DNA of 64,000 nt from Campylobacteraceae bacterium (GTDB taxonomy: Bacteria; Campylobacterota; Campylobacteria; Campylobacterales; Arcobacteraceae): NCBI GenBank assembly GCA_013215945.1, contig JABSOM010000016.1:1-64000 (forward strand), in the 5' to 3' direction. Positions 3,324 to 56,886 of this stretch are shown here, in pieces. The notes under the pieces were generated by a model, which was not told where the DNA came from, did no database searches, and saw nothing but the letters and a program-made list of their open reading frames with translations. Made by a program: the position numbers and the translations under genes. The stretch's first letter is position 1. Every line of letters begins with the position of its first letter.

Positions 3324-3340
3324 TGTATATTTAATATACA
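3324..3340. promoter_or_regulatory. candidate operator upstream of narK
   Basis: A perfect inverted repeat, TGTATA-TTTAA-TATACA, lies about 63 bases before the narK start in a 306-base intergenic region. The same half-sites with the same 5-base spacer recur before the iron-sulfur subunit gene at 6311-6333. The pairing of two matching palindromes inside one pathway suggests a shared regulator, whose identity is unknown. It does not fit the FNR (TTGAT-N4-ATCAA) or Fur patterns. The rest of the 3097-3402 gap shows only AT-rich promoter-like sequence. Confidence 0.55.
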
Positions 3341-3402
3341 GTTACATAGTATAAAAAATATATAATAATTATATACTTCTAAGAATAATAATAGGAGAGA
3401 AT

Positions 3403-4683
3403 ATGGCAAGTTTAAAAGATTTAAAAGGACAAGGACATACACCTACACTGTTTATGGCCTTTTTATATTTCGATATGAGTTTTATGGTTTGGACAATGTT
3501 GGGCCCTTTAAGTACTGAAATTTCTGAGGCATTAGCATTAAGCGGACATATTATGAGTGCTGGTGAAAAAGCTACACTTTTATCTTTGCCTATCTTATCC
3601 GGTGCTATTTTACGAATTATATTGGGTTTTGGAGTAGATAAACTTGGTGCTAAAACTACTGCACTTATTTCACAACTTATTGTAATTGTTGCTCTTTTAA
3701 GCGCCTATTTTATGGGAAGTGATATTTCATATAATCAATTGTTAATTGTTGCTCTTGGTTTAGGTTTTGCAGGGGCTTCTTTTGCTGTTGCTTTACCACA
3801 AGCAGGTCAGTGGTATCCACCAAGATTACAAGGTGTTGTTTTAGGAATTGCTGGGGCTGGTAATATAGGTGTTGTTATTGATTTCTTATTTGCACCAAAA
3901 ATTGCCGAAATTTGGGGATGGAATATGGTATTTGGAGTAGGCGCTTTTATGGCAATTGTTGTTTTTATTGCTTATGTTTTATTTGCTTTTGATGCCCCTT
4001 CCCATGTCTATAAAAAGAATCCCAAAAGACTTAAAGATTATGTTAATTTATTAAAAGACAAAGATACATGGTGGTTCTCATTGTTTTATGCTATTAGTTT
4101 TGGTGGATTTGTTGGAATTGCTGGTTATATGAAAGTTTATTTAATGAATACGTATTCAGCAGACATGGCAACATTTGGAACAGAAATAATGAATGAAAAC
4201 AATGTAAAAGTAATTGCTGGGTATTTTGGAGCTTTATGTATTTTTGCAGGAGCAATATTAAGACCTTATGGAGGAAGTACAGCAGATAGAATTGGCGGCG
4301 TTAAATCTTTATACTTTTTTTATACAGCTGTTGTTATATTAGTGATAATTACGGCTGTTATAGATTTGCCATTTTACGCTTCTATTGTGGTATTATTCTT
4401 AATGATGGCAAACCTAGGTATGGCAAATGGAGCAGTATTTCAGCTTGTTCCTCAACGATTCGCAAAAGATATCGGAATAATGACTGGTATTGTTGGTTGT
4501 GCTGGAGGACTAGGAGGAACTGCTCTTATTCAAACGCTTGGATGGTCAAAAGGTACTTTTGATGGGTATAGCGTTGGATTTTTAATCTTTGCTCTTGTAC
4601 TAATTGTTGCAATTGTAGGATTAAGTATGGTAAAAACAAGATGGAGAACAACTTGGGGAGTACAAGCGGGAGGAATAATATAA
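3403..4683 (+). CDS. narK: nitrate/nitrite transporter, NarK type (MFS)
   Basis: A 426-residue major facilitator protein with 12 predicted helices, of the nitrate/nitrite porter family, bringing nitrate into the cytoplasm for assimilation. Both family signatures are visible: GAGNIGVV at 151-158 and a second glycine-rich signature (CAGGLGGT) in the C-terminal half. An arginine in helix 2 (ILRIILG, R71) and one in the C-terminal half (ILRPYGG) correspond to the pair that binds the anion in E. coli NarK. The start has a clear AGGAGAG ribosome site. It is the first gene of the cluster and ends directly at the GTG of the next gene, so the two are probably co-translated. Naming as narK rather than nasA/nrtP is by family convention. 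Confidence 0.92.
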   Translation: MASLKDLKGQGHTPTLFMAFLYFDMSFMVWTMLGPLSTEISEALALSGHIMSAGEKATLLSLPILSGAILRIILGFGVDKLGAKTTALISQLIVIVALLSAYFMGSDISYNQLLIVALGLGFAGASFAVALPQAGQWYPPRLQGVVLGIAGAGNIGVVIDFLFAPKIAEIWGWNMVFGVGAFMAIVVFIAYVLFAFDAPSHVYKKNPKRLKDYVNLLKDKDTWWFSLFYAISFGGFVGIAGYMKVYLMNTYSADMATFGTEIMNENNVKVIAGYFGALCIFAGAILRPYGGSTADRIGGVKSLYFFYTAVVILVIITAVIDLPFYASIVVLFLMMANLGMANGAVFQLVPQRFAKDIGIMTGIVGCAGGLGGTALIQTLGWSKGTFDGYSVGFLIFALVLIVAIVGLSMVKTRWRTTWGVQAGGII

Positions 4684-6309
4684 GTGAAGAACATATCAAA
4701 TTCTTCTTTTTCTCTTGCAAAAGGGAAAAATCTACTATCTGATGATTTTTCCGATATTCAAAGTTTTGATAATTTGAATATTGCCATTATGTGTGATGGA
4801 GTTGGAAGCGCAAAAGAAGGAAGACAAGCAGCACAAAAAACATGTCAATACCTTATGGACTCTTTTAAAAGCAGACCAAAAGCGTGGAGTATTGAAAAAT
4901 GTCTAAAAACCTTTATTAATAATATTAACAATATTTTATATTCTTCTTCTATGCAAGATTATCAACGTGTTGAAATGATAACTACCTTAGCTATTGTTGT
5001 AATTCATGGCAACAGATTGTATGGAGCAAATATTGGAGATACGAGAATATATCTGCTTAGAGAAAACATTCTTACTCAATTATCAAGCGATCATGTTATG
5101 AATGAAAAAGGTTATGAAGATGTTCTTACTTTGGCTGTAGGAATGGAAGAACAAAGTGATTTATATTATTTTGAAAATACCCTAGAAAAAGAAGACAAAA
5201 TTCTTTTATGTACAGATGGATTGTACAAAGGTTTAAGTGAAGAAGAATTAATAAAACAGCTTGCTTTTGGTGCTTATTCTTTGGTTAAAAAAGCCAGTGC
5301 AAAAGTAGATGATTTATTAGAAGATGATTGCAGCGCATTAATTTTAAATATTAATAAAAAAGATGAACTGGCCCAGCTTAAAAGTTTAAATTTAAAAATT
5401 GCTTCAAAACTATCAGTAAACGATGTAATTGATGATTATACCCTGGTAAAATCTTTAATTCAAGATGAGAGAACATGGATATGTAAAAAAGAAAATGTAG
5501 AATATATCATAAAATTTCCTCCTCTTAATGCGGAGCAAAACCCACAAGAATTTGATACCTTTATAAAAGAAATATGGAATGCCAAAAGATTAGAAGGCGA
5601 TTTTTTTCCAAAAACCTATCTTCCCGTTAATCGAACATACAGATACTATCTGATGGATAAAATTGAAGGAAAAGATTTAAAAGAACATCTGAAAAACTCT
5701 GTATTAAGTATAGAAGAAACAATTGAACTGACAAAAGTTTTACTAAAAATGTCACAATATTTATTAAACAATGATTTAGTGCATGCAGACATAAAACCAG
5801 AAAACATTATGATTACTCAAATAAACAATACAAAAAGCTTTAAAATTATTGATTTTGGTTCTATTACAGAAATATACTCTTTGCAAACAAATGCAGGAAC
5901 ACCCTCTTATATTGCACCTGAACGCTTTCATGGCGCTGCTTTAAACGAAAGCACTGAGATTTACTCTATAGGAGTAACCTTATATGAAGCTCTTTGTAAT
6001 AAATATCCTTATGGAGAAGTAGAAGCTTTTTCAAGTCCTAGTTTTAATTCTCTTAAACGTCCAAAAAACTTTAATAAAAATATTCCTGTTTGGTTTGAAT
6101 CGTTTTTATTGCATTGTTTATGCAAAGATGCAAATAACAGATATTCTTCTTATTCACATGTTTTATTTGAATTAAAGAATCCCGAAAAAGTGATTCCTTA
6201 TTTTGATAAAAATACTCCTTTTTTAGAAAAAGACCCCGTAAAGTTTTATAAAATTGGCTTTTACACCTTATTATTAATTAATTTTATATTTTTAATTAAT
6301 ATATTATAA
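4684..6309 (+). CDS. PP2C phosphatase / Ser-Thr protein kinase fusion, C-terminal membrane anchor
   Basis: A 541-residue two-headed signalling protein. Residues 1-225 form a PP2C-type phosphatase with metal-binding aspartates in MCDGVGS (D38), GDTR (D119), CTDG (D178) and EDD (D215). Residues about 252-505 form a Hanks-type kinase: ATP lysine K277, catalytic loop HADIKPEN (367-374), DFG at 390-392 and GTPSYIAPE at 405-413. A hydrophobic helix occupies the last 20 residues, so it should sit on the inner membrane facing the cytoplasm. It starts with GTG immediately after the narK stop. Such fusions are commonly found beside nitrate transporters and assimilatory reductases in proteobacteria. The substrate is not known; NarK itself or a regulator is a reasonable guess. 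Confidence 0.9.
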   Translation: MKNISNSSFSLAKGKNLLSDDFSDIQSFDNLNIAIMCDGVGSAKEGRQAAQKTCQYLMDSFKSRPKAWSIEKCLKTFINNINNILYSSSMQDYQRVEMITTLAIVVIHGNRLYGANIGDTRIYLLRENILTQLSSDHVMNEKGYEDVLTLAVGMEEQSDLYYFENTLEKEDKILLCTDGLYKGLSEEELIKQLAFGAYSLVKKASAKVDDLLEDDCSALILNINKKDELAQLKSLNLKIASKLSVNDVIDDYTLVKSLIQDERTWICKKENVEYIIKFPPLNAEQNPQEFDTFIKEIWNAKRLEGDFFPKTYLPVNRTYRYYLMDKIEGKDLKEHLKNSVLSIEETIELTKVLLKMSQYLLNNDLVHADIKPENIMITQINNTKSFKIIDFGSITEIYSLQTNAGTPSYIAPERFHGAALNESTEIYSIGVTLYEALCNKYPYGEVEAFSSPSFNSLKRPKNFNKNIPVWFESFLLHCLCKDANNRYSSYSHVLFELKNPEKVIPYFDKNTPFLEKDPVKFYKIGFYTLLLINFIFLINIL

Positions 6310-6310
6310 A

Positions 6311-6353
6311 TACTGTATATTAATTATACAGTATAATACATAATTAATATACA
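6311..6353. promoter_or_regulatory. candidate operator cluster before the iron-sulfur/membrane subunit gene
   Basis: A perfect inverted repeat with 9-base arms, TACTGTATA-TTAAT-TATACAGTA, spans 6311-6333. A degenerate second copy, TACATA-ATTAA-TATACA, follows at 6337-6353. Both match the palindrome before narK in half-site and 5-base spacing. They lie 40-85 bases before the GTG at 6395, in the only sizeable gap inside the cluster, so a second promoter is probable here. The first repeat could instead be a hairpin ending the narK-kinase transcript. Confidence 0.55.
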
Positions 6354-6394
6354 GATAATGATAAAATATCCTTAAGAAAATTAAGGAGTTTATA

Positions 6395-7981
6395 GTGTCA
6401 AACAATTTCACTACCCCTCTTGATAGTTTTATAAACTATAAAACAAATACTCATAATCAATGTGGTAATTATTCTATTGATATAAAAAAACCCAAAGAAG
6501 ATGAACAATACCGATTTCACTTTGATGCAACTGCTTGTATTGGCTGTCATTGTTGTGAAGTTGCCTGTAATGAACAAAATAATAATGATGCAGCTATTAA
6601 ATGGAGAAGAGTGGGAGAAACTCAAAGTGGAACCTTTCCTGCTATTTCAAGCCATTTTAATTCTATGTCATGTAATCACTGTATTGATCCCGAATGTCTA
6701 AAAGGCTGTCCTACTAATTCTTATATAAAATTTGATAATGGCATTGTTTTTCACGATGATGAGAGCTGTATTGGCTGTCAGTATTGTACATGGAATTGTC
6801 CCTATGAAGTACCTGTTTTTGATGAGAGCAGAGGAATAGTAACCAAGTGTCATATGTGTCATGAAAAATTAGACATTGGTCAAACACCTGCTTGTGTCCA
6901 AGCCTGTCCCAGCGGTGCAATTCAAATAGAACTTGTGAATACAAAAGAATGGTTAGAAAAAGACATGTATACACAAGGGATTGCACCGCATTTATGTGAT
7001 GTTGATATTACAAAACCTACTACGAGATATACTTTAAATGAAGACTTAAATAAAAGTATTCAAACACCAGCCGATGATCATATTTTAAAAGCCAATCATG
7101 CAGAATGGCCTTTGGTTTTTATGACAGTATTAACACAAATGTCTTTGGGTGCTTTTAGCATTTTATTTTTATTAGAAACATTAAACTATTTTTCTTTTAT
7201 AGGCGTAAATATTACAACACGTATGTATATTCTGGCTTTTTTGCCAGCAGCTTTAGGTTTACCTTTGTCAGCTTTACACTTAGGTCGCCCTATTTTAGCA
7301 CTAACCGCCATGAAAAATATTAAAACATCATGGTTAAGTAGAGAAGCTTTGGCTTTAGGTTTATTTACAGGAGCCTTAAGTGCAAGCATTGTTTTATCGT
7401 ATTTACAAAGTCCTTATTTATTAATAAACAATATTTTTGTATTAGCACTTGGAATATATGGTATTTATGCACAATCTATGATTTATAGAATAAAAGCAAG
7501 ACCTTCTTGGAATAAAAAAGAAACAACATATAACTTCTTTAATGTAGGTTATATTGGAAGTTTACTGATAGCTTTATCATTGTTAATTAATGAAGTTTAT
7601 TTTCTTTCATCCCTTGTATTTTCATTCTCTTTAATATTAAGTATTTATCAACAACTATTATTCAAGAAAAAAGAGACTTTTTATAAAAACTTAGAAGAAG
7701 AAAATAAGAACTTTTATCAACTTAATAAAACAAAAAAACTTTATGAAGGTATGTTTAAAAAACATTCACAAATAAGAGCTCTTACATTAAATATAAGTAT
7801 TACTTTTACCTTAATAGTACTCATTCTTTTAGTAAATGAATATTACTTAATAGCAGGAACAATAGCAGCCATAAGTACAGTAAGTGCTTTTGTGTCAGAA
7901 ATAATTGAACGTTCATTGTTCTATAAAACAGCTGTTGCACATGGTCTTGCGGGTCACTTTTTTGCAGGAAATCAACGATGA
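6395..7981 (+). CDS. 4Fe-4S ferredoxin domain fused to DmsC-like membrane anchor
   Basis: A 528-residue fusion. The first 190 residues are a DmsB/NrfC-type four-cluster ferredoxin with four cysteine groups (CIGCHCCEVAC, CNHCIDPECLKGC, CIGCQYCTWNC and CHMCH...CVQAC). From about residue 235 there are eight predicted helices resembling the DmsC quinol-oxidising anchor. By analogy with DMSO reductase it should take electrons from the quinol pool and pass them to the nitrate reductase encoded next (overlap ATGA at 7978). The GTG start has TAAGGAG five bases upstream. The arrangement implies quinol-dependent nitrate assimilation rather than NADH- or ferredoxin-dependent; this is inference from domain order. 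Confidence 0.87.
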   Translation: MSNNFTTPLDSFINYKTNTHNQCGNYSIDIKKPKEDEQYRFHFDATACIGCHCCEVACNEQNNNDAAIKWRRVGETQSGTFPAISSHFNSMSCNHCIDPECLKGCPTNSYIKFDNGIVFHDDESCIGCQYCTWNCPYEVPVFDESRGIVTKCHMCHEKLDIGQTPACVQACPSGAIQIELVNTKEWLEKDMYTQGIAPHLCDVDITKPTTRYTLNEDLNKSIQTPADDHILKANHAEWPLVFMTVLTQMSLGAFSILFLLETLNYFSFIGVNITTRMYILAFLPAALGLPLSALHLGRPILALTAMKNIKTSWLSREALALGLFTGALSASIVLSYLQSPYLLINNIFVLALGIYGIYAQSMIYRIKARPSWNKKETTYNFFNVGYIGSLLIALSLLINEVYFLSSLVFSFSLILSIYQQLLFKKKETFYKNLEEENKNFYQLNKTKKLYEGMFKKHSQIRALTLNISITFTLIVLILLVNEYYLIAGTIAAISTVSAFVSEIIERSLFYKTAVAHGLAGHFFAGNQR

Positions 7982-10269
7982 TCAATAAAATTAAAAAATT
8001 CCTAGGGGTTGATGTGCAAATGGAAAAATTTGCTCTAGTTGATGATAGTACTTTTGGAAAAGTAGCCAAAGAAAAAGCACCTACTAAATGGGTAAGAAGT
8101 ACTTGTGGATATTGTGGGGTTGGTTGTGGCTTGTATATTGGAGTTAAAAATAATAAAGCTGTTTATACAAAAGGGGATCCAGCTCATCCTGTTAATATGG
8201 GAACTTTATGCCCTAAGGGTTTAAGTGAACATGAAACACTTGCGAGTAGCAACAGATACGATGGACCAATGATTAAAAAAGACGGGAAACTTGTAGAGGT
8301 TTCTTGGGATGAAGCCTTTAAAAAAACAAGTGATTCCTTTAAAAAGATTCAAAAAAAATATGGAAATCAAGCTCTGGCTTGTATTTCAACAGGACAATTA
8401 TTAAGCGAAGAGTTTTATACCCTTGGAAAATTCATGCAAATGGGTTTAAAAACCACAAATTATGATGGAAATACAACTTTATGTATGGCATCTGCTGTTA
8501 TGGGATATAAACAAACCTTTGGAAGTGATGGACCTCCTGGGGCTTACGAAGATTTTTCATATGCCGATGTAATTATGTTAATTGGTGCAAATATTGCGGA
8601 TAATCATCCCATCTTAAAATTGCATATTCAAAAAAATGAACAAATAACAGGGAAAAAACCTACGATTATTGTCATTGATCCAAGATATTCAAAAACAGCT
8701 TCCATGGCAGATATTTTTGTTCCTTTAAATCCAAGAGCGGATTTAGCATTAATGAATACCCTGGCCTATATTATCATTGAAAATAATTGGATTAATGAAG
8801 AATTTATTAGTAAAAAAACATCGAATTATGAAAACTTTAAAACACATATTTTAAACAATTATTCTCCCGAACAAACAAGTGAAATTATTGGAATAAAAAA
8901 AGAAGATTTATATGAGCTTGCAAAAACATATTCAAGTGCGAAAGCAGCAATGTCTGCTTGGACTATGGGAGTAAATCACAGTTCAATTGGTACTGATACT
9001 GTAAGTGCTATTTGTAATCTTGCTTTAATTACAGGAAACTTAGGAAGAAAAGGAGCAACTGCTTTATCTATCACGGGACAGTGTAATGCTATGGGAACGA
9101 GAGAAGTTGGTTTTACATCTTCAATCCCAGGGTATAGAAACTTTGCATCAAAAAAAGATCGAGAAGAGTATGCAAAAATTGCAAATGTTCCATATTGCGA
9201 TGTACCTACAAAAAGAGGATATTCTTATCCTCAAATAATTGATGCTATTAATGCAGGTGAAATAAAAGCTTTATATATAGTAGCTACCAATCCTTTGGTT
9301 TCTTTTCCAGATCAAATAAAACTTCGAGAAGCTTTTGATAAATTAGAATTATTAGTCGTACAAGATGCTTTTAAAAGTGAAACGACACAAGTGGCGGATA
9401 TTGTTTTTGCTGCTGCTACCTGGGGTGAAAAAGAAGGTACTTATACCAATTCTGAGCGTCGTTGCAATTATGCACAAAAAGCTCTTGAACCACGAGCAAA
9501 TACGAAAAGTGATTTTCATATTGTTTTAGAGTTCTCAAAATACTTTGAAGGAGTAAATGAGCGTTTATTTCCTTCTTGGAGCGAACCACTTGATGCATTT
9601 AATGAATGGAAAAAAATATCAGAGGGAAGATTATGCGATTATACAGGAATGTCTTATTCATTAATTGCCAAACTAGGTGGAATACAATGGCCTTGTAATA
9701 AAGAATTCCCCCAAGGAAAAGCAAGATTATATGATGACAAAATCGATTTTCCGACAAAGGATAAAAAAGCCAAATTATTGGCCCTCGACTGGTTACCATT
9801 TCAAGATAAACTAAGTACTGAATTTCCTTTGATTTTAAATACAGGGAGAACAGTTGAACAATGGCATACAAGAACAAAAACCAAAGAGATAAGTATATTA
9901 AACGACCTATGTCCTGAGGCTTGGATAGAAATAAATCCCTATGATGCTAAAAAACTAAAAGTAAAAAGTGGTGAGAGATTAAGTATTTCTTCTTTAAGAG
10001 GAACAGTAAAAGATATTATAGTAAAAGAGTCACAAACAATAAAAAGTGGTCATATATTCATTCCTTTTCATTATTCAAAACAATTAATCAATGCAGTAAC
10101 CATTGCAGAGTTTGACCCAAAATCTTTTGAGCCAAATTATAAACAATGTGCAGTTCAACTACATAGTAAGAACGTTCCTACTGGAATTAAATATAACAAA
10201 AAAGAATTATCCCTAGAACTATTAAATACTGTAAAACAAAATCAATATACCAAGAAGGAATATACATGA
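7978..10269 (+). CDS. nasA: assimilatory nitrate reductase catalytic subunit
   Basis: A 763-residue molybdopterin oxidoreductase that reduces nitrate to nitrite in the cytoplasm. The N-terminal [4Fe-4S] ligands are C43, C46, C50 and C78 (CGYCGVGC ... CPKG), followed by the molybdopterin and dinucleotide-binding domains. No Tat signal is seen, which argues for assimilatory NasA/NarB rather than periplasmic NapA. It lacks the extra C-terminal 2Fe-2S domain found in some NasA proteins, fitting a separate electron-donor subunit. It overlaps the preceding membrane subunit by ATGA and the following nirB by ATGA. A mobA gene at 58.3-58.9 kb would supply the dinucleotide cofactor. Formate dehydrogenase is the main alternative family, but the cluster with NarK and NirBD makes nitrate the likely substrate. 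Confidence 0.9.
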   Translation: MINKIKKFLGVDVQMEKFALVDDSTFGKVAKEKAPTKWVRSTCGYCGVGCGLYIGVKNNKAVYTKGDPAHPVNMGTLCPKGLSEHETLASSNRYDGPMIKKDGKLVEVSWDEAFKKTSDSFKKIQKKYGNQALACISTGQLLSEEFYTLGKFMQMGLKTTNYDGNTTLCMASAVMGYKQTFGSDGPPGAYEDFSYADVIMLIGANIADNHPILKLHIQKNEQITGKKPTIIVIDPRYSKTASMADIFVPLNPRADLALMNTLAYIIIENNWINEEFISKKTSNYENFKTHILNNYSPEQTSEIIGIKKEDLYELAKTYSSAKAAMSAWTMGVNHSSIGTDTVSAICNLALITGNLGRKGATALSITGQCNAMGTREVGFTSSIPGYRNFASKKDREEYAKIANVPYCDVPTKRGYSYPQIIDAINAGEIKALYIVATNPLVSFPDQIKLREAFDKLELLVVQDAFKSETTQVADIVFAAATWGEKEGTYTNSERRCNYAQKALEPRANTKSDFHIVLEFSKYFEGVNERLFPSWSEPLDAFNEWKKISEGRLCDYTGMSYSLIAKLGGIQWPCNKEFPQGKARLYDDKIDFPTKDKKAKLLALDWLPFQDKLSTEFPLILNTGRTVEQWHTRTKTKEISILNDLCPEAWIEINPYDAKKLKVKSGERLSISSLRGTVKDIIVKESQTIKSGHIFIPFHYSKQLINAVTIAEFDPKSFEPNYKQCAVQLHSKNVPTGIKYNKKELSLELLNTVKQNQYTKKEYT

Positions 10270-12740
10270 AAGAAAAATTAGTAGTCATTGGAAATGGAAT
10301 GAGTGGGTTAAGAACCATTGAGGATCTTTTTGATATCACTAAAGACAAATATGATATTACTATTTTTGGCGATGAGCCTCATTACAACTATAATAGAATC
10401 ATGTTGTCCTATCTTTTATCAGGAGAGAAAAGTTTTGAAGATACTATTATCAATCATAAAACCTGGTACGATGAAAACAATGTTACTTTACATAAAGGGG
10501 ATGAAGCCATCTTCATTGATAAAGAAAATAAAACGGTTACTTCTAAGAGTGGTAAAGTTTTAGCTTATGACAAATTATTAATAGCAACAGGTTCTAATTC
10601 TTTTATTCCCAAAACAAAAGGAAGTGAACTTAAAAATGTTATTGGATTTAGAAATAAACTAGACAGTGATACTATATTAGAACTTATTTCTAAAAACAAA
10701 ACAGCTGTAGTTGTAGGTGGTGGTTTACTTGGACTAGAAGCTGCTTATGGCATAGCTATGCATGGAATTAAAACTATTTTAGTTCACAGAAGTGCTTCTA
10801 TTATGAGTCAACAATTAGATTCTACAGGAGGAAGACTTTTACAAAAAAACCTTGAAGCGTATGGAATCAAATTCAAACTAAATACAACTATTGAAGAAAT
10901 ATCGGGAAAAGAAAGTGTTGAAAATGTTTCTTTTACAGATGGCACAAGTGTTGAGTCTAATATTGTAGTATTTGCAACAGGAATTATTCCCAATACTAAA
11001 CTAGCACATGAGGCAAACCTTGATATTAAAAAAGGAATACTTGTAAACGATCATTTGCAAACAAGCGATGAAAGTATTTTTGCTATTGGGGAATGTGCTG
11101 AACACAAAGGAAATACCTATGGTTTAGTGGCACCTTTATACGAACAAGCTAAATATTGTGCTAAAAAATTAGCTGATGTTCCCAGTGATGGATATTCTGG
11201 TTCTACTTTATCAACCAGACTTAAAATATCTGGTGTTGATTTATTTTCAGCAGGGGATTATTTAGGGGATGAAACAACAGAAGAATTAATTCTCTTAGAT
11301 GAAAAATATGGTATTTATAAAAAACTGGTCATTTATCAAGACAGAATTATTGGTATTGTTTTATACGGAGAAACAAGCGATGCCTCATGGTATTTAAAAC
11401 TCTTAAAAGAAGAAACAAATATCAGTGATTTAAGACATAAAATCTTATTTGGGAAATCTGCTTTAGGTGACAGTGGTCATGGGGGTGATGATATTGCTGC
11501 TATGAGTGATGATGAAGAAATATGTGGATGTAATGGAATTACAAAAGGCACCGTTGTTTGTGCCATTAAAGAACAAGACTTAAAAACACTAAATGACGTA
11601 AAAACGTGTACTAAAGCAGGCGCTTCTTGTGGATCTTGTTTGGGTTTAGTGGAGCAAGTTTTAGTACATACTTTAGGCGATGAGTACCAAAGTGATGTGC
11701 AAGAAGGTATTTGTCCTTGTTGTGATGTTGGTCATAAAGAAATAAAAGCCTGCATTGATTCTAATGAATATAAAACAGTTTATGAAGTATTTGAAAACTT
11801 AGCTTGGAAAAATGAAGATGGATGTATCAAATGCAGACCTGCTATTAATTATTATTTATTGGTTAAATACAATGATGATAAATACAAAAATGATAAAAGA
11901 TCTTTATTAGTAAACGACAGAGTATTTGCAAATATACAAAAAGATGGCACCTATTCAGTAGTTCCCAGAATTTGGGGTGGAGTAACTTCTGCACAACAAT
12001 TAAAAGATATGGCGGATATTGCAGTTAAATATGATGTTCCTACTGTAAAATTTACAGGAGGTCAAAGACTTGATATGTTAGGTATTAGAAAAGAGCAATT
12101 AGAACCTATGTGGAAAGATTTAAATGATGCGGGTTTTGTATCTGGACAAGCATATGCAAAAGGATTACGAACGGTAAAAACGTGTGTAGGAAATGTTTGG
12201 TGCAGATTTGGAACACAAGATGCAATGCAAACAGGTATTGATATTGAAAAATTCACCTGGGGTTCATGGACACCACATAAATTTAAAGTGGGTGTTTCGG
12301 GATGTCCAAGAAATTGTGCAGAAGCCACTATTAAGGATATTGGCGTTATTGCTGTTGATTCTGGATGGGAAATACATATTGCTGGAAATGGTGGAATAAA
12401 AGTACGCGTAACTGATTTTTTATGTAAGGTTAAAAACAATGAAGAATTGTATGTTTATATCAAAGCCATTATGCAGTTCTACAGAGAAGATGCTTATTAT
12501 TTAGAAAGAACTGCCCATTGGATTGAAAGAGTTGGATTAGAATATATTAAAGAAGTATTATTAAATACCAAAGGTAATATTGAATTCTATGAAAAAAGAT
12601 TTATAGAATCTCAAAAACACGCTCAAATTGATCCTTGGGAAGAATCTAGAAAAGATGGTTTTACAAAAGAGTTCCAACCCATAATATTAGACATAAAAGA
12701 TTCTCCTTCTTATGAAGCACATGAAAAGGCAAATGCATGA
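10266..12740 (+). CDS. nirB: nitrite reductase (NADH) large subunit
   Basis: An 824-residue siroheme enzyme reducing nitrite to ammonium with NADH. In order: FAD/NAD(P)-binding oxidoreductase domain (1-about 400, with GNGMSG and GGGLLGLEAA nucleotide loops), a BFD-type [2Fe-2S] domain (about 419-470, CGCNG ... CTKAGASCGSC), a second cysteine-rich segment (CPCC ... CIKC), then the ferredoxin-like and siroheme/4Fe-4S domains. The siroheme cluster ligands are in TCVGNVWCRFG (near 640) and SGCPRNC (near 680). Length is standard for NirB. It overlaps nasA and nirD by ATGA, so the three are translationally coupled. Confidence 0.95.
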   Translation: MKEKLVVIGNGMSGLRTIEDLFDITKDKYDITIFGDEPHYNYNRIMLSYLLSGEKSFEDTIINHKTWYDENNVTLHKGDEAIFIDKENKTVTSKSGKVLAYDKLLIATGSNSFIPKTKGSELKNVIGFRNKLDSDTILELISKNKTAVVVGGGLLGLEAAYGIAMHGIKTILVHRSASIMSQQLDSTGGRLLQKNLEAYGIKFKLNTTIEEISGKESVENVSFTDGTSVESNIVVFATGIIPNTKLAHEANLDIKKGILVNDHLQTSDESIFAIGECAEHKGNTYGLVAPLYEQAKYCAKKLADVPSDGYSGSTLSTRLKISGVDLFSAGDYLGDETTEELILLDEKYGIYKKLVIYQDRIIGIVLYGETSDASWYLKLLKEETNISDLRHKILFGKSALGDSGHGGDDIAAMSDDEEICGCNGITKGTVVCAIKEQDLKTLNDVKTCTKAGASCGSCLGLVEQVLVHTLGDEYQSDVQEGICPCCDVGHKEIKACIDSNEYKTVYEVFENLAWKNEDGCIKCRPAINYYLLVKYNDDKYKNDKRSLLVNDRVFANIQKDGTYSVVPRIWGGVTSAQQLKDMADIAVKYDVPTVKFTGGQRLDMLGIRKEQLEPMWKDLNDAGFVSGQAYAKGLRTVKTCVGNVWCRFGTQDAMQTGIDIEKFTWGSWTPHKFKVGVSGCPRNCAEATIKDIGVIAVDSGWEIHIAGNGGIKVRVTDFLCKVKNNEELYVYIKAIMQFYREDAYYLERTAHWIERVGLEYIKEVLLNTKGNIEFYEKRFIESQKHAQIDPWEESRKDGFTKEFQPIILDIKDSPSYEAHEKANA

Positions 12741-13045
12741 AAACATGGAAAAAAATAACACATATTAATGATATTCCCCTAATGGGTTCAAGAATCCTTC
12801 AATACCAAGAAGAAGAAATTGTATTGTTTAAAAACAGAAAAGAAGAGATTTTTGCACTCAATAATGTATGTCCTCATAAACAAGGAAAACTAAGTGAAGG
12901 TATGGTGCACGGAAAGAGTGTAACCTGCCCTTTACATAACTGGGATATAGACTTAGAAACAGGAGAAGCCCTTGGTAGTGATTCTGGATGTACGCAAGTA
13001 TATGAAAGTAAGATAGAAGAAGAAATACTCTACATTCTTCTATAA
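12737..13045 (+). CDS. nirD: nitrite reductase (NADH) small subunit, Rieske type
   Basis: A 102-residue Rieske [2Fe-2S] protein, partner of NirB. Cluster ligands are C45 and H47 (CPH) and C64 and H67 (CPLH). Length matches NirD. It overlaps nirB by ATGA and is the last gene of the nitrate assimilation operon, followed at once by a strong hairpin. Confidence 0.93.
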   Translation: MKTWKKITHINDIPLMGSRILQYQEEEIVLFKNRKEEIFALNNVCPHKQGKLSEGMVHGKSVTCPLHNWDIDLETGEALGSDSGCTQVYESKIEEEILYILL

Positions 13046-55077: not shown

Positions 55078-56886
55078 TTGGAACCCATAGGTATTTTAAG
55101 CGAAGGTCAAATATATGATCTTCAAACTGCAGAAGCTTTAAACATCACAGGAGAGGAAGTAAGAGCTGACAACTCACCTGAATCACTCGAAATTCTTAGA
55201 CACTCCTGTGCTCACTTAATGGCACAAGCGATAAAAGAGTTATACAAAGATGCTAAATTCTTTGTTGGTCCTGTAATTAAAGAAGGATTCTATTACGATT
55301 TTAAAGTTGAATCTAAAATTACAGATGATGATTTAATTAAAATTGAAAAGAAAATGAAAGAACTTGCAAATGCAAGACTTCCTATTACACGTTCAGAGAT
55401 TTCAAGAGATACGTTTTTTGAAAAATTTGCTAACGATGAATTAAAACTAGAAGTAATCAAAAGAATTACAGACGATACATTGACTATGTATACCCAAGGT
55501 GATTTTGAAGACCTTTGCCGTGGACCACATTTACCCAATACAAGAATGATTCGAACCTTCAAACTAATAAGAGTAGCTGGTGCTTATCTTGGTGGTGATG
55601 AAAAAAACGAAATGATTACACGAATTTATGGAATTGCTTTTTTTGATAAAAAACAAATGCATGATTATGTAAGAATGTTAGAAGAAGCAAAAAAACGTGA
55701 CCATAGAAAACTAGGTACAGAATTAGAATTATTCGCTTTCAATGATGAAATAGGTGCTGGTTTGCCTTTATGGTTACCAAATGGTGCAAGACTACGTTCT
55801 AAATTAGAGCATATTTTGTATACTGCCCACAGAGTAAGAGGGTATCAACCCGTACGTGGACCTGAAATCTTAAAATCTGATATGTGGAAAACATCTGGTC
55901 ACTATGAGAATTATAAAGAAAATATGTATTTTACAACCATAGATGATCAAGAATATGGTTTAAAACCTATGAACTGTGTAGGTCATATACAAATATTCAA
56001 AAATAAATTGGTTTCTTACAAAGATTTACCAATGAAATATTTTGAATACGGAGTAGTTCACAGACATGAAATGTCTGGATCTATGCATGGATTATTTAGA
56101 GTAAGAGAATTTGCTCAAGATGATGCACATATTTTTTGTATGGAAAATCAAATTAAAGATGTTATCATTGAAGTGTTAGAATTTGTTGATGCTTTAATGA
56201 AGATGTTTGATTTTAAATATTCAATTGAAGTTTCAACAAGACCCGAAAAAGCAATTGGGAGTGATGAATTCTGGGAGAAAACAACTGCTGGAATTATTGA
56301 TGCACTTACTGAAAACAATATTGAATATGGTATTGATGAAGGTGGAGGAGCATTTTATGGTCCTAAAATTGATATTAAAATCACTGATGCTATTGGACGA
56401 CAATGGCAGTGTGGTACGGTTCAAGTTGATATGAACTTACCTGAGAGATTTAATGCACAATTTATTAATGCAGAAGGTGAAAAAGAACAGCCAGTAATGA
56501 TTCACAGAGCCATTTTAGGTTCTTTTGAACGATTTATTGGGATTTTAACTGAGCATTGTGCGGGAGAATTTCCTTTTCCTATTGCACCAACGCAAGTTAT
56601 TTTTATCCCAATCGCGGAACCTCATGTAGAGTATGCGAAAGAGTTAAATAAAGAACTGGTTTACAATGACATTGATGGCGAAATTTATTCTATGAACGAA
56701 AGTTTGAATAAGCGCGTTAGAATGGCAGAGAAAAGAAAAGTACCAATGATAGTTGTTCTTGGAGATGAAGAAGTTACTAATAAAACAATAGCTTTAAGAA
56801 ACAGAAGAACCAGAGAACAATCAAACATGACTAGAGATGAATTTATGTCTTTAGTAAAAGAATTAAAAAACGGGAGTAGAATTTGA
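55078..56886 (+). CDS. thrS: threonyl-tRNA synthetase
   Basis: A 602-residue class II synthetase. Editing domain HxxxH and catalytic motifs are clear: [22 protein letters not shown], the [28 protein letters not shown] region (motif 2) and [11 protein letters not shown] (motif 3). It lacks the usual TGS domain, as in H. pylori ThrS. The start is TTG at 55078 with AAAGGAA upstream. It is followed at once by infC. Confidence 0.95.

Follow-up and report, generated by a model that had tools for sequence, protein, structure and literature searches.

How is the nitrate cluster in this stretch of DNA controlled, and by which protein? The window, i.e. the whole stretch of 64,000 nucleotides analysed here (positions 1 to 64,000 of contig JABSOM010000016.1, from a bacterium of the Arcobacteraceae), carries matching palindromes of the form TGTATA-N5-TATACA in front of two genes of the cluster, narK and a gene encoding an iron-sulfur (Fe-S)/membrane protein. 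Our comparisons indicate that these palindromes are, with high probability, operators of a nitrogen-limitation regulon, most likely read by P0001, a stand-alone NtrC-derived activator that would work with sigma-70. The response of Campylobacterota to nitrogen limitation is largely undescribed; an operator together with a candidate regulator and a target list makes it directly testable.

The palindromes, their targets and their promoters

The features of the window on which the question turns are the following.

3324..3340, no strand: operator 1, exact copy TGTATA-TTTAA-TATACA (TGTATATTTAATATACA), 62 bp upstream of the narK start codon
3372..3377, plus strand: predicted -10 hexamer TATACT of narK, 31 bp past operator 1, placed by the TANNNT spacing across aligned sites
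3403..4683, plus strand: narK, NarK-family nitrate/nitrite transporter (TIGR00886, E=1.8e-68, under the curated cut-off)
6311..6333, no strand: operator 2, perfect 23-bp inverted repeat TACTGTATA-TTAAT-TATACAGTA, 64 bp upstream of the Fe-S gene
6337..6353, no strand: degenerate copy with 2 mismatches, 41 bp upstream of the Fe-S gene start codon, a doubtful site
6362..6367, plus strand: putative -10 hexamer TAAAAT of the Fe-S gene, 31 bp past operator 2
6395..7981, plus strand: Fe-S gene, 4Fe-4S and DmsC-like membrane protein (PF13247, PF04976)

The sequence-only reading had described two perfect inverted repeats and one degenerate copy upstream of narK and of the Fe-S gene, all with the same 5-base AT-only spacer. 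Coordinates, exactness and placement were borne out, and the AT-only spacer is true of both exact copies (TTTAA and TTAAT). In operator 2 the exact core, TGTATA-TTAAT-TATACA, occupies 6314-6330 inside the longer repeat. The accompanying caution that AT-richness favours chance palindromes applies to the degenerate matches and not to the exact copies. The window holds two exact copies against 0.01 expected from shuffled windows, none of which held two. Allowing up to 2 mismatches gives 20 matches against 8.3 expected, so the degenerate matches are mostly noise and the copy at 6337-6353 is treated as doubtful. A nearly identical counterpart of this copy is found in genome G043, and genome G032 has no copy at the corresponding place. 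A further match at 55975-55991 was discounted as a site, since loose single matches are no commoner than controls genome-wide.

The own genome of the window (G000; 3.24 Mb in 28 contigs) contains six exact copies, compared to one for a reversed-pattern control. Five of them end 62-67 bp upstream of the start codons of nitrogen genes, namely glnA, amtB1, amtB2 (with the site between the PII gene and amtB2), narK and the Fe-S gene. Matches with one mismatch (30 against 34 in the control) and a degenerate pattern (15 against 11) are not enriched in this genome; the exact copies are therefore special and single loose matches are not.

In related Arcobacteraceae genomes the site recurs 60-76 bp upstream of glnA, amtB and narK; at some promoters there are two. 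When 2 mismatches at most are tolerated, it lies 66-71 bp before the ATG of glnA in 30/30 best-matching family loci; it is exact with a spacer of 5 in 23 of these, and spacers from 2 to 11 other than 5 occur in none. For amtB the site was present upstream of all 21 recognised starts (the remaining 9 of 30 loci lack a recognised start and are not counted). The 12 family orthologues of narK with upstream DNA all have it within 2 mismatches at 62-66 bp; G039, whose contig lacks upstream DNA, and G042, with a weak NarK match, were left out of this count. The narK site is present, too, in all 8 related nitrate clusters that were read completely or partially. An exact site precedes the Fe-S gene in the own genome, in G043 (65 bp upstream) and in G032 (58 bp upstream); other related clusters have a site, often weaker, before nirB, before a gene of 529-533 amino acids whose product we read as a nitrite-reductase-like protein, or before an additional nasA-like gene. 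Being rare genome-wide and conserved before homologous clusters, the motif shows neither the random abundance nor the lack of conservation that would have spoken against a regulatory site.

Genome G014 has 21 exact copies. Sites there precede a NifA-like gene, nirB, nasA- and nrtA-like genes, a gene for a UrtA-like binding protein, amino-acid transporter genes, further Amt genes and P0001 itself; these names come from reading N-termini, not from family searches, and some sites have no clear nitrogen target. Across the relatives, targets beyond glnA and amtB include nirB, nasA/nrtA, urea- and amino-acid-transport genes and a NifA-like gene, which argues for general nitrogen control and not for nitrate alone. 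Of the earlier suggestion of an undescribed regulator of nitrate assimilation, the undescribed regulator stands and the restriction to nitrate does not.

The glnA box is not of the TGTATA type in all family members. G001, G034, G045, G020 and G059 have TGGTTA-N5-TAACCA instead, and G057 has the hybrid TGTATA...TAACCA.

We aligned 74 sites (42 of glnA, 20 of amtB and 12 of narK), picked at up to 2 mismatches, so that conservation of the motif is partly by construction; the spacing to the predicted -10 is not. TANNNT occurs 31 or 32 bp past the palindrome in 71 of the 74, any other offset in at most 22. Some glnA promoters also show a -35 element, TTGACT or TTGAAG, separated from the -10 by about 17 bp. 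If TANNNT is the -10, the palindrome would be centred at about -52, immediately before the -35 region, a spacing that suggests activation.

P0001 as the candidate reader

The candidate regulator is encoded outside the window, at a locus containing three genes in the order P0002, P0001 and GlnD-like protein opposite amtB1.

G000:C20:21711-22457, divergent from amtB1: P0001, 249 amino acids, beside a glnD-like gene
L016:8487-9359 (G000:C20), minus strand: P0002, 290-amino-acid membrane protein just before P0001 on the same strand
L016:5172-7712 (G000:C20), minus strand: GlnD-like protein, directly after P0001, under the curated GlnD cut-off

Presence of P0001 predicts the glnA site. Among 61 family genomes, the 46 with P0001 all have the general form TGNNTA-N5-TANNCA 55-85 bp upstream of glnA, exactly in 44 and with a single mismatch in 2, compared to 1 of the 15 without P0001 (up to one mismatch allowed). 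A weak match in G038 (E=8e-4, 23% identity) was not counted as a regulator, hence 46/15 and not 47/14; second, partial matches in G020 and G059 were not counted either. Both P0001 and the site are missing from one sampled genome in each of the genera g2, g7, g12 and g14 and present in its sampled sisters; the sampled genomes of g8 (4) and g11 (6) have neither. The absences include incomplete assemblies (e.g. G050, 85%), but in every one of them the glnA upstream region itself was inspected. Genomes with P0001 contain on average 5.33 exact palindromes (control 1.26) and those without it 1.00 (control 1.00), a difference with a Mann-Whitney p of 2e-7, not corrected for kinship. GlnD is present in 51/61 family genomes, several of them without P0001, so P0001 is not a mere proxy for GlnD. 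In G014 and G042 the site lies 17 bp upstream of P0001 itself, in G014 counted to the start codon.

P0001 has a C-terminal helix-turn-helix (HTH) of the Fis type (PF02954 over cut-off; Fis chains matched), and the ntrC model TIGR01818 aligns to its C-terminus with E=7.4e-11. As a whole it reaches 41.5 bits against a cut-off of 558.6 for this model. An AAA+ domain of the sigma-54-activator type (PF14532 and PF00158, both over cut-off) precedes the HTH and is shortened: 44 residues separate Walker A from the next matched block, about 42 fewer than the 86 in NtrC1. The protein starts at this domain and has no receiver domain, its sequence contains no GAFTGA loop, and there is no NtrB-like gene in its operon. 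An AlphaFold model (predicted local distance difference test, pLDDT, 90.2) gave fold matches to NtrC1, ZraR and NtrX in PDB. Conservation is highest in the HTH, whose recognition helix reads NR[IVT]TLRKK in 46/46 family orthologues. A changed helix is not supported as the cause of the TGGTTA-type sites: G020 and G059 keep it as it is, and g2 shows no more than an I-to-V substitution. RpoN (PF04552) was found in 20/61 family genomes and not in the own genome and three others of its genus (4/4); a sigma-54 mechanism is therefore excluded here as far as the search can see. Judged by predicted domains, P0001 belongs to the NtrC family (HTH and AAA+ fold, without the GAFTGA loop) and is not NtrC proper, given the missing receiver, the TIGR01818 score and the lack of RpoN. 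A search of named genomes with P0001 gave 7 loci, the closest being the metagenome-assembled genome Arcobacter sp. NORP36 (96%).

According to the mechanism we propose, a P0001 dimer would bind the 17-bp TGTATA-N5-TATACA at about -52 and, under nitrogen shortage, recruit the housekeeping sigma-70 polymerase from just upstream of the -35. This would switch on amtB, glnA and the operon of P0001 itself, and in the present genome narK and the Fe-S/nasA/nirBD genes, too. The nitrogen signal might reach P0001 through the GlnD/PII system; we regard such a link as plausible and advance it tentatively, because GlnD and PII genes neighbour P0001.

P0002, which was present in 24 of 49 loci searched, has no Pfam match and consists of a soluble N-terminal domain and four predicted long helices (structure model with a mean pLDDT of 71 and a predicted template modelling score of 0.47). 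It is possibly a sensor partner.

In the class Campylobacteria a P0001 profile found relatives in 55/200 genomes, including the family's own. Outside the family, the general glnA site is present within one mismatch in 29 of 30 genomes with P0001 (23 exact; shuffles of this set gave 0.7 and 0.02 of 30, respectively) and in 0/30 without it. For these 30 negatives, 8 were shown to have no match and 22 were assigned by their absence from the 55 positives; their glnA start codons, 11 of them set by hand, are all ATG, GTG or TTG. The half-sites outside the family are mostly TGATTA, TGGTTA or TGCTTA, which points to an ancient nitrogen box of the whole class that became TGTATA in Arcobacteraceae. It is rather likely that much of the class, long believed to be without NtrC, controls nitrogen by a receiver-less, sigma-54-independent descendant of NtrC acting at a re-coded box, TGNNTA-N5-TANNCA, about 52 bp upstream of sigma-70 starts. 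Arcobacteraceae, in which the gene has its place at the amtB-glnD locus, would then have retuned the box, and several lineages would have lost gene and box together.

At nearly all of the 26 non-family loci read (L214-L239) the P0001 relative is flanked by a slyD-like peptidyl-prolyl isomerase gene, which it often overlaps, and by fabD.

Comparison with known systems and alternative explanations

The regulon resembles that of NtrC (NR-I) of other Proteobacteria in the TG...CA ends and 5-bp A/T-rich centre of the box, in the Fis-type HTH and in the core targets glnA, amtB and glnK. The E. coli NtrC box is given in an excerpt of PMC8743547 as the 17-bp palindrome TGCACCAnnnTGGTGCA; length, ends and 5-bp spacer are the same, and the inner half-site differs (TGTATA here, TGCACC there). 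The accessory targets of NtrC listed in part of PMC5343134 (nas, nrt, narK, urea transport) are common to both, and a NifA-like gene belongs to the sites of G014, too. In contrast to NtrC, P0001 is without receiver and GAFTGA and has a shortened AAA+ domain, no NtrB-like gene was found in its operon and no RpoN in the genome, and the predicted layout is that of a promoter-proximal sigma-70 site instead of a sigma-54 enhancer. With such a box in front of glnA, amtB and further nitrogen genes the regulon looks NtrC-like, but its presumed regulator is not NtrC proper.

The closest parallel is the GAFTGA-less NtrC of Rhodobacter capsulatus and Caulobacter, which acts on sigma-70 promoters and keeps receiver and kinase (excerpt of PMC10274813). 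Both lack the sigma-54 loop and serve nitrogen genes with the housekeeping polymerase, as predicted for P0001; the receiver and the NtrB partner retained there were, however, not found with the 249-amino-acid P0001. If our reading is true, an NtrC box and its regulator would here have switched from sigma-54 to sigma-70 once the receiver had been lost. Among the papers listed by our literature searches we found no description of this regulator or box. A survey of proteobacterial regulons omitted the epsilon group for having no orthologues of its regulators, NtrC among them (in the part of PMC5343134 concerned), and the A. butzleri genome is described in an excerpt of PMC2147049 as having no NtrB/NtrC and no RpoN.

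P0001 might bind the sites and act chiefly by a repression that is relieved when nitrogen is limiting. The two sites at some promoters and the short distance to the P0001 start codon in G014, which would suit autorepression, fit this idea. We nevertheless consider it unlikely: 71 of the 74 glnA, amtB and narK sites, at 31-32 bp upstream of the predicted -10, would not cover the core promoter, and the GAFTGA-less NtrC-type regulators of R. capsulatus and Caulobacter activate sigma-70 promoters, although that of Caulobacter represses some genes, too (excerpt of PMC10274813).

A different objection is that the operators are real nitrogen operators read by another protein, e.g. of the GlnR/TnrA or CRP/FNR type, and that P0001 merely travels with the regulon; co-occurrence alone is no proof that P0001 binds. 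GlnR and TnrA of Bacillota are MerR-type regulators with the 17-bp box TGTNAN7TNACA, and TnrA activates from upstream of the -35. Length, TGT...ACA ends and the activator position upstream of the -35 are therefore shared, but the protein type differs and the box needs A at position 5, where none of the 74 sites has it (72 have T and 2 have C). FNR sites have the even-spaced form TTGAT-N4-ATCAA, unlike the 17-bp sites with N5 studied here, and LexA boxes read CTGT-N8-ACAG. The statement of the sequence-only reading that the palindromes fit neither FNR nor Fur nor NsrR was borne out against the consensus motifs, for Fur and NsrR by visual comparison. Reading ACTGTATA as a LexA box was rejected, too (CTGT-N11-ACAG). 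Furthermore, the NtrC-type layout of 17 bp with N5 suits a Fis-type HTH, site and P0001 are jointly absent in genomes of six genera, and the site precedes P0001 itself in G014 and G042. A reader other than P0001 is hence quite improbable.

That the palindromes arose by chance in AT-rich DNA, as the ordinary frequency of own-genome matches with one or two mismatches could indicate, is already refuted for the exact sites by their excess over shuffles, the nitrogen genes behind five of six and the position conserved across the family, and deserves practically no credence.

Several observations weigh against P0001 as activator at these sites. G003 has the glnA site and P0001 was not found there (a fragmented assembly, 91% complete in 280 contigs). 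The general motif was formulated with the data already in view, and the genomes are not independent. The sites of the TGGTTA type co-occur with the same recognition helix, so the way in which the protein reads the half-site is only partly explained. The sixth exact palindrome of the own genome (G000:C4:206541-206557) lies about 220 bp upstream of ccoN of the cbb3 oxidase operon, a non-canonical distance. Outside the family, the 30 negatives come from two families only, G220 has a P0001 relative and no site, and G067, G173 and G131 carry weak sites only. The non-family homologue is located between slyD-like and fabD genes and not by nitrogen genes; the link to nitrogen there thus comes solely from the glnA sites.

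Further genes of the cluster and a possible additional target

The remaining genes of the nitrate cluster in the window are listed below.

4684..6309, plus strand: fusion of PP2C phosphatase and Ser/Thr kinase (PF13672, PF00069), beginning directly after the narK stop
7978..10269, plus strand: molybdopterin assimilatory nitrate reductase-like protein (NasA/NasC; PF00384; NF047855 with E=4e-152, under cut-off)
10266..12740, plus strand: nirB, nitrite reductase large subunit (TIGR02374 over cut-off)
12737..13045, plus strand: nirD-like small subunit, an open reading frame named from position and sequence reading, after nirB also in G043 and G032

The phosphatase-kinase fusion gene inside the nitrate operon adjoins narK in 8/8 related clusters.

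A further site, TGTTTACTTTTTAAACA, is found in the own genome at G000:C4:83488-83504, 59 bp upstream of a gene whose N-terminus reads like a siroheme-synthesis methyltransferase. Since nirB needs siroheme, this gene is possibly a weak member of the regulon.

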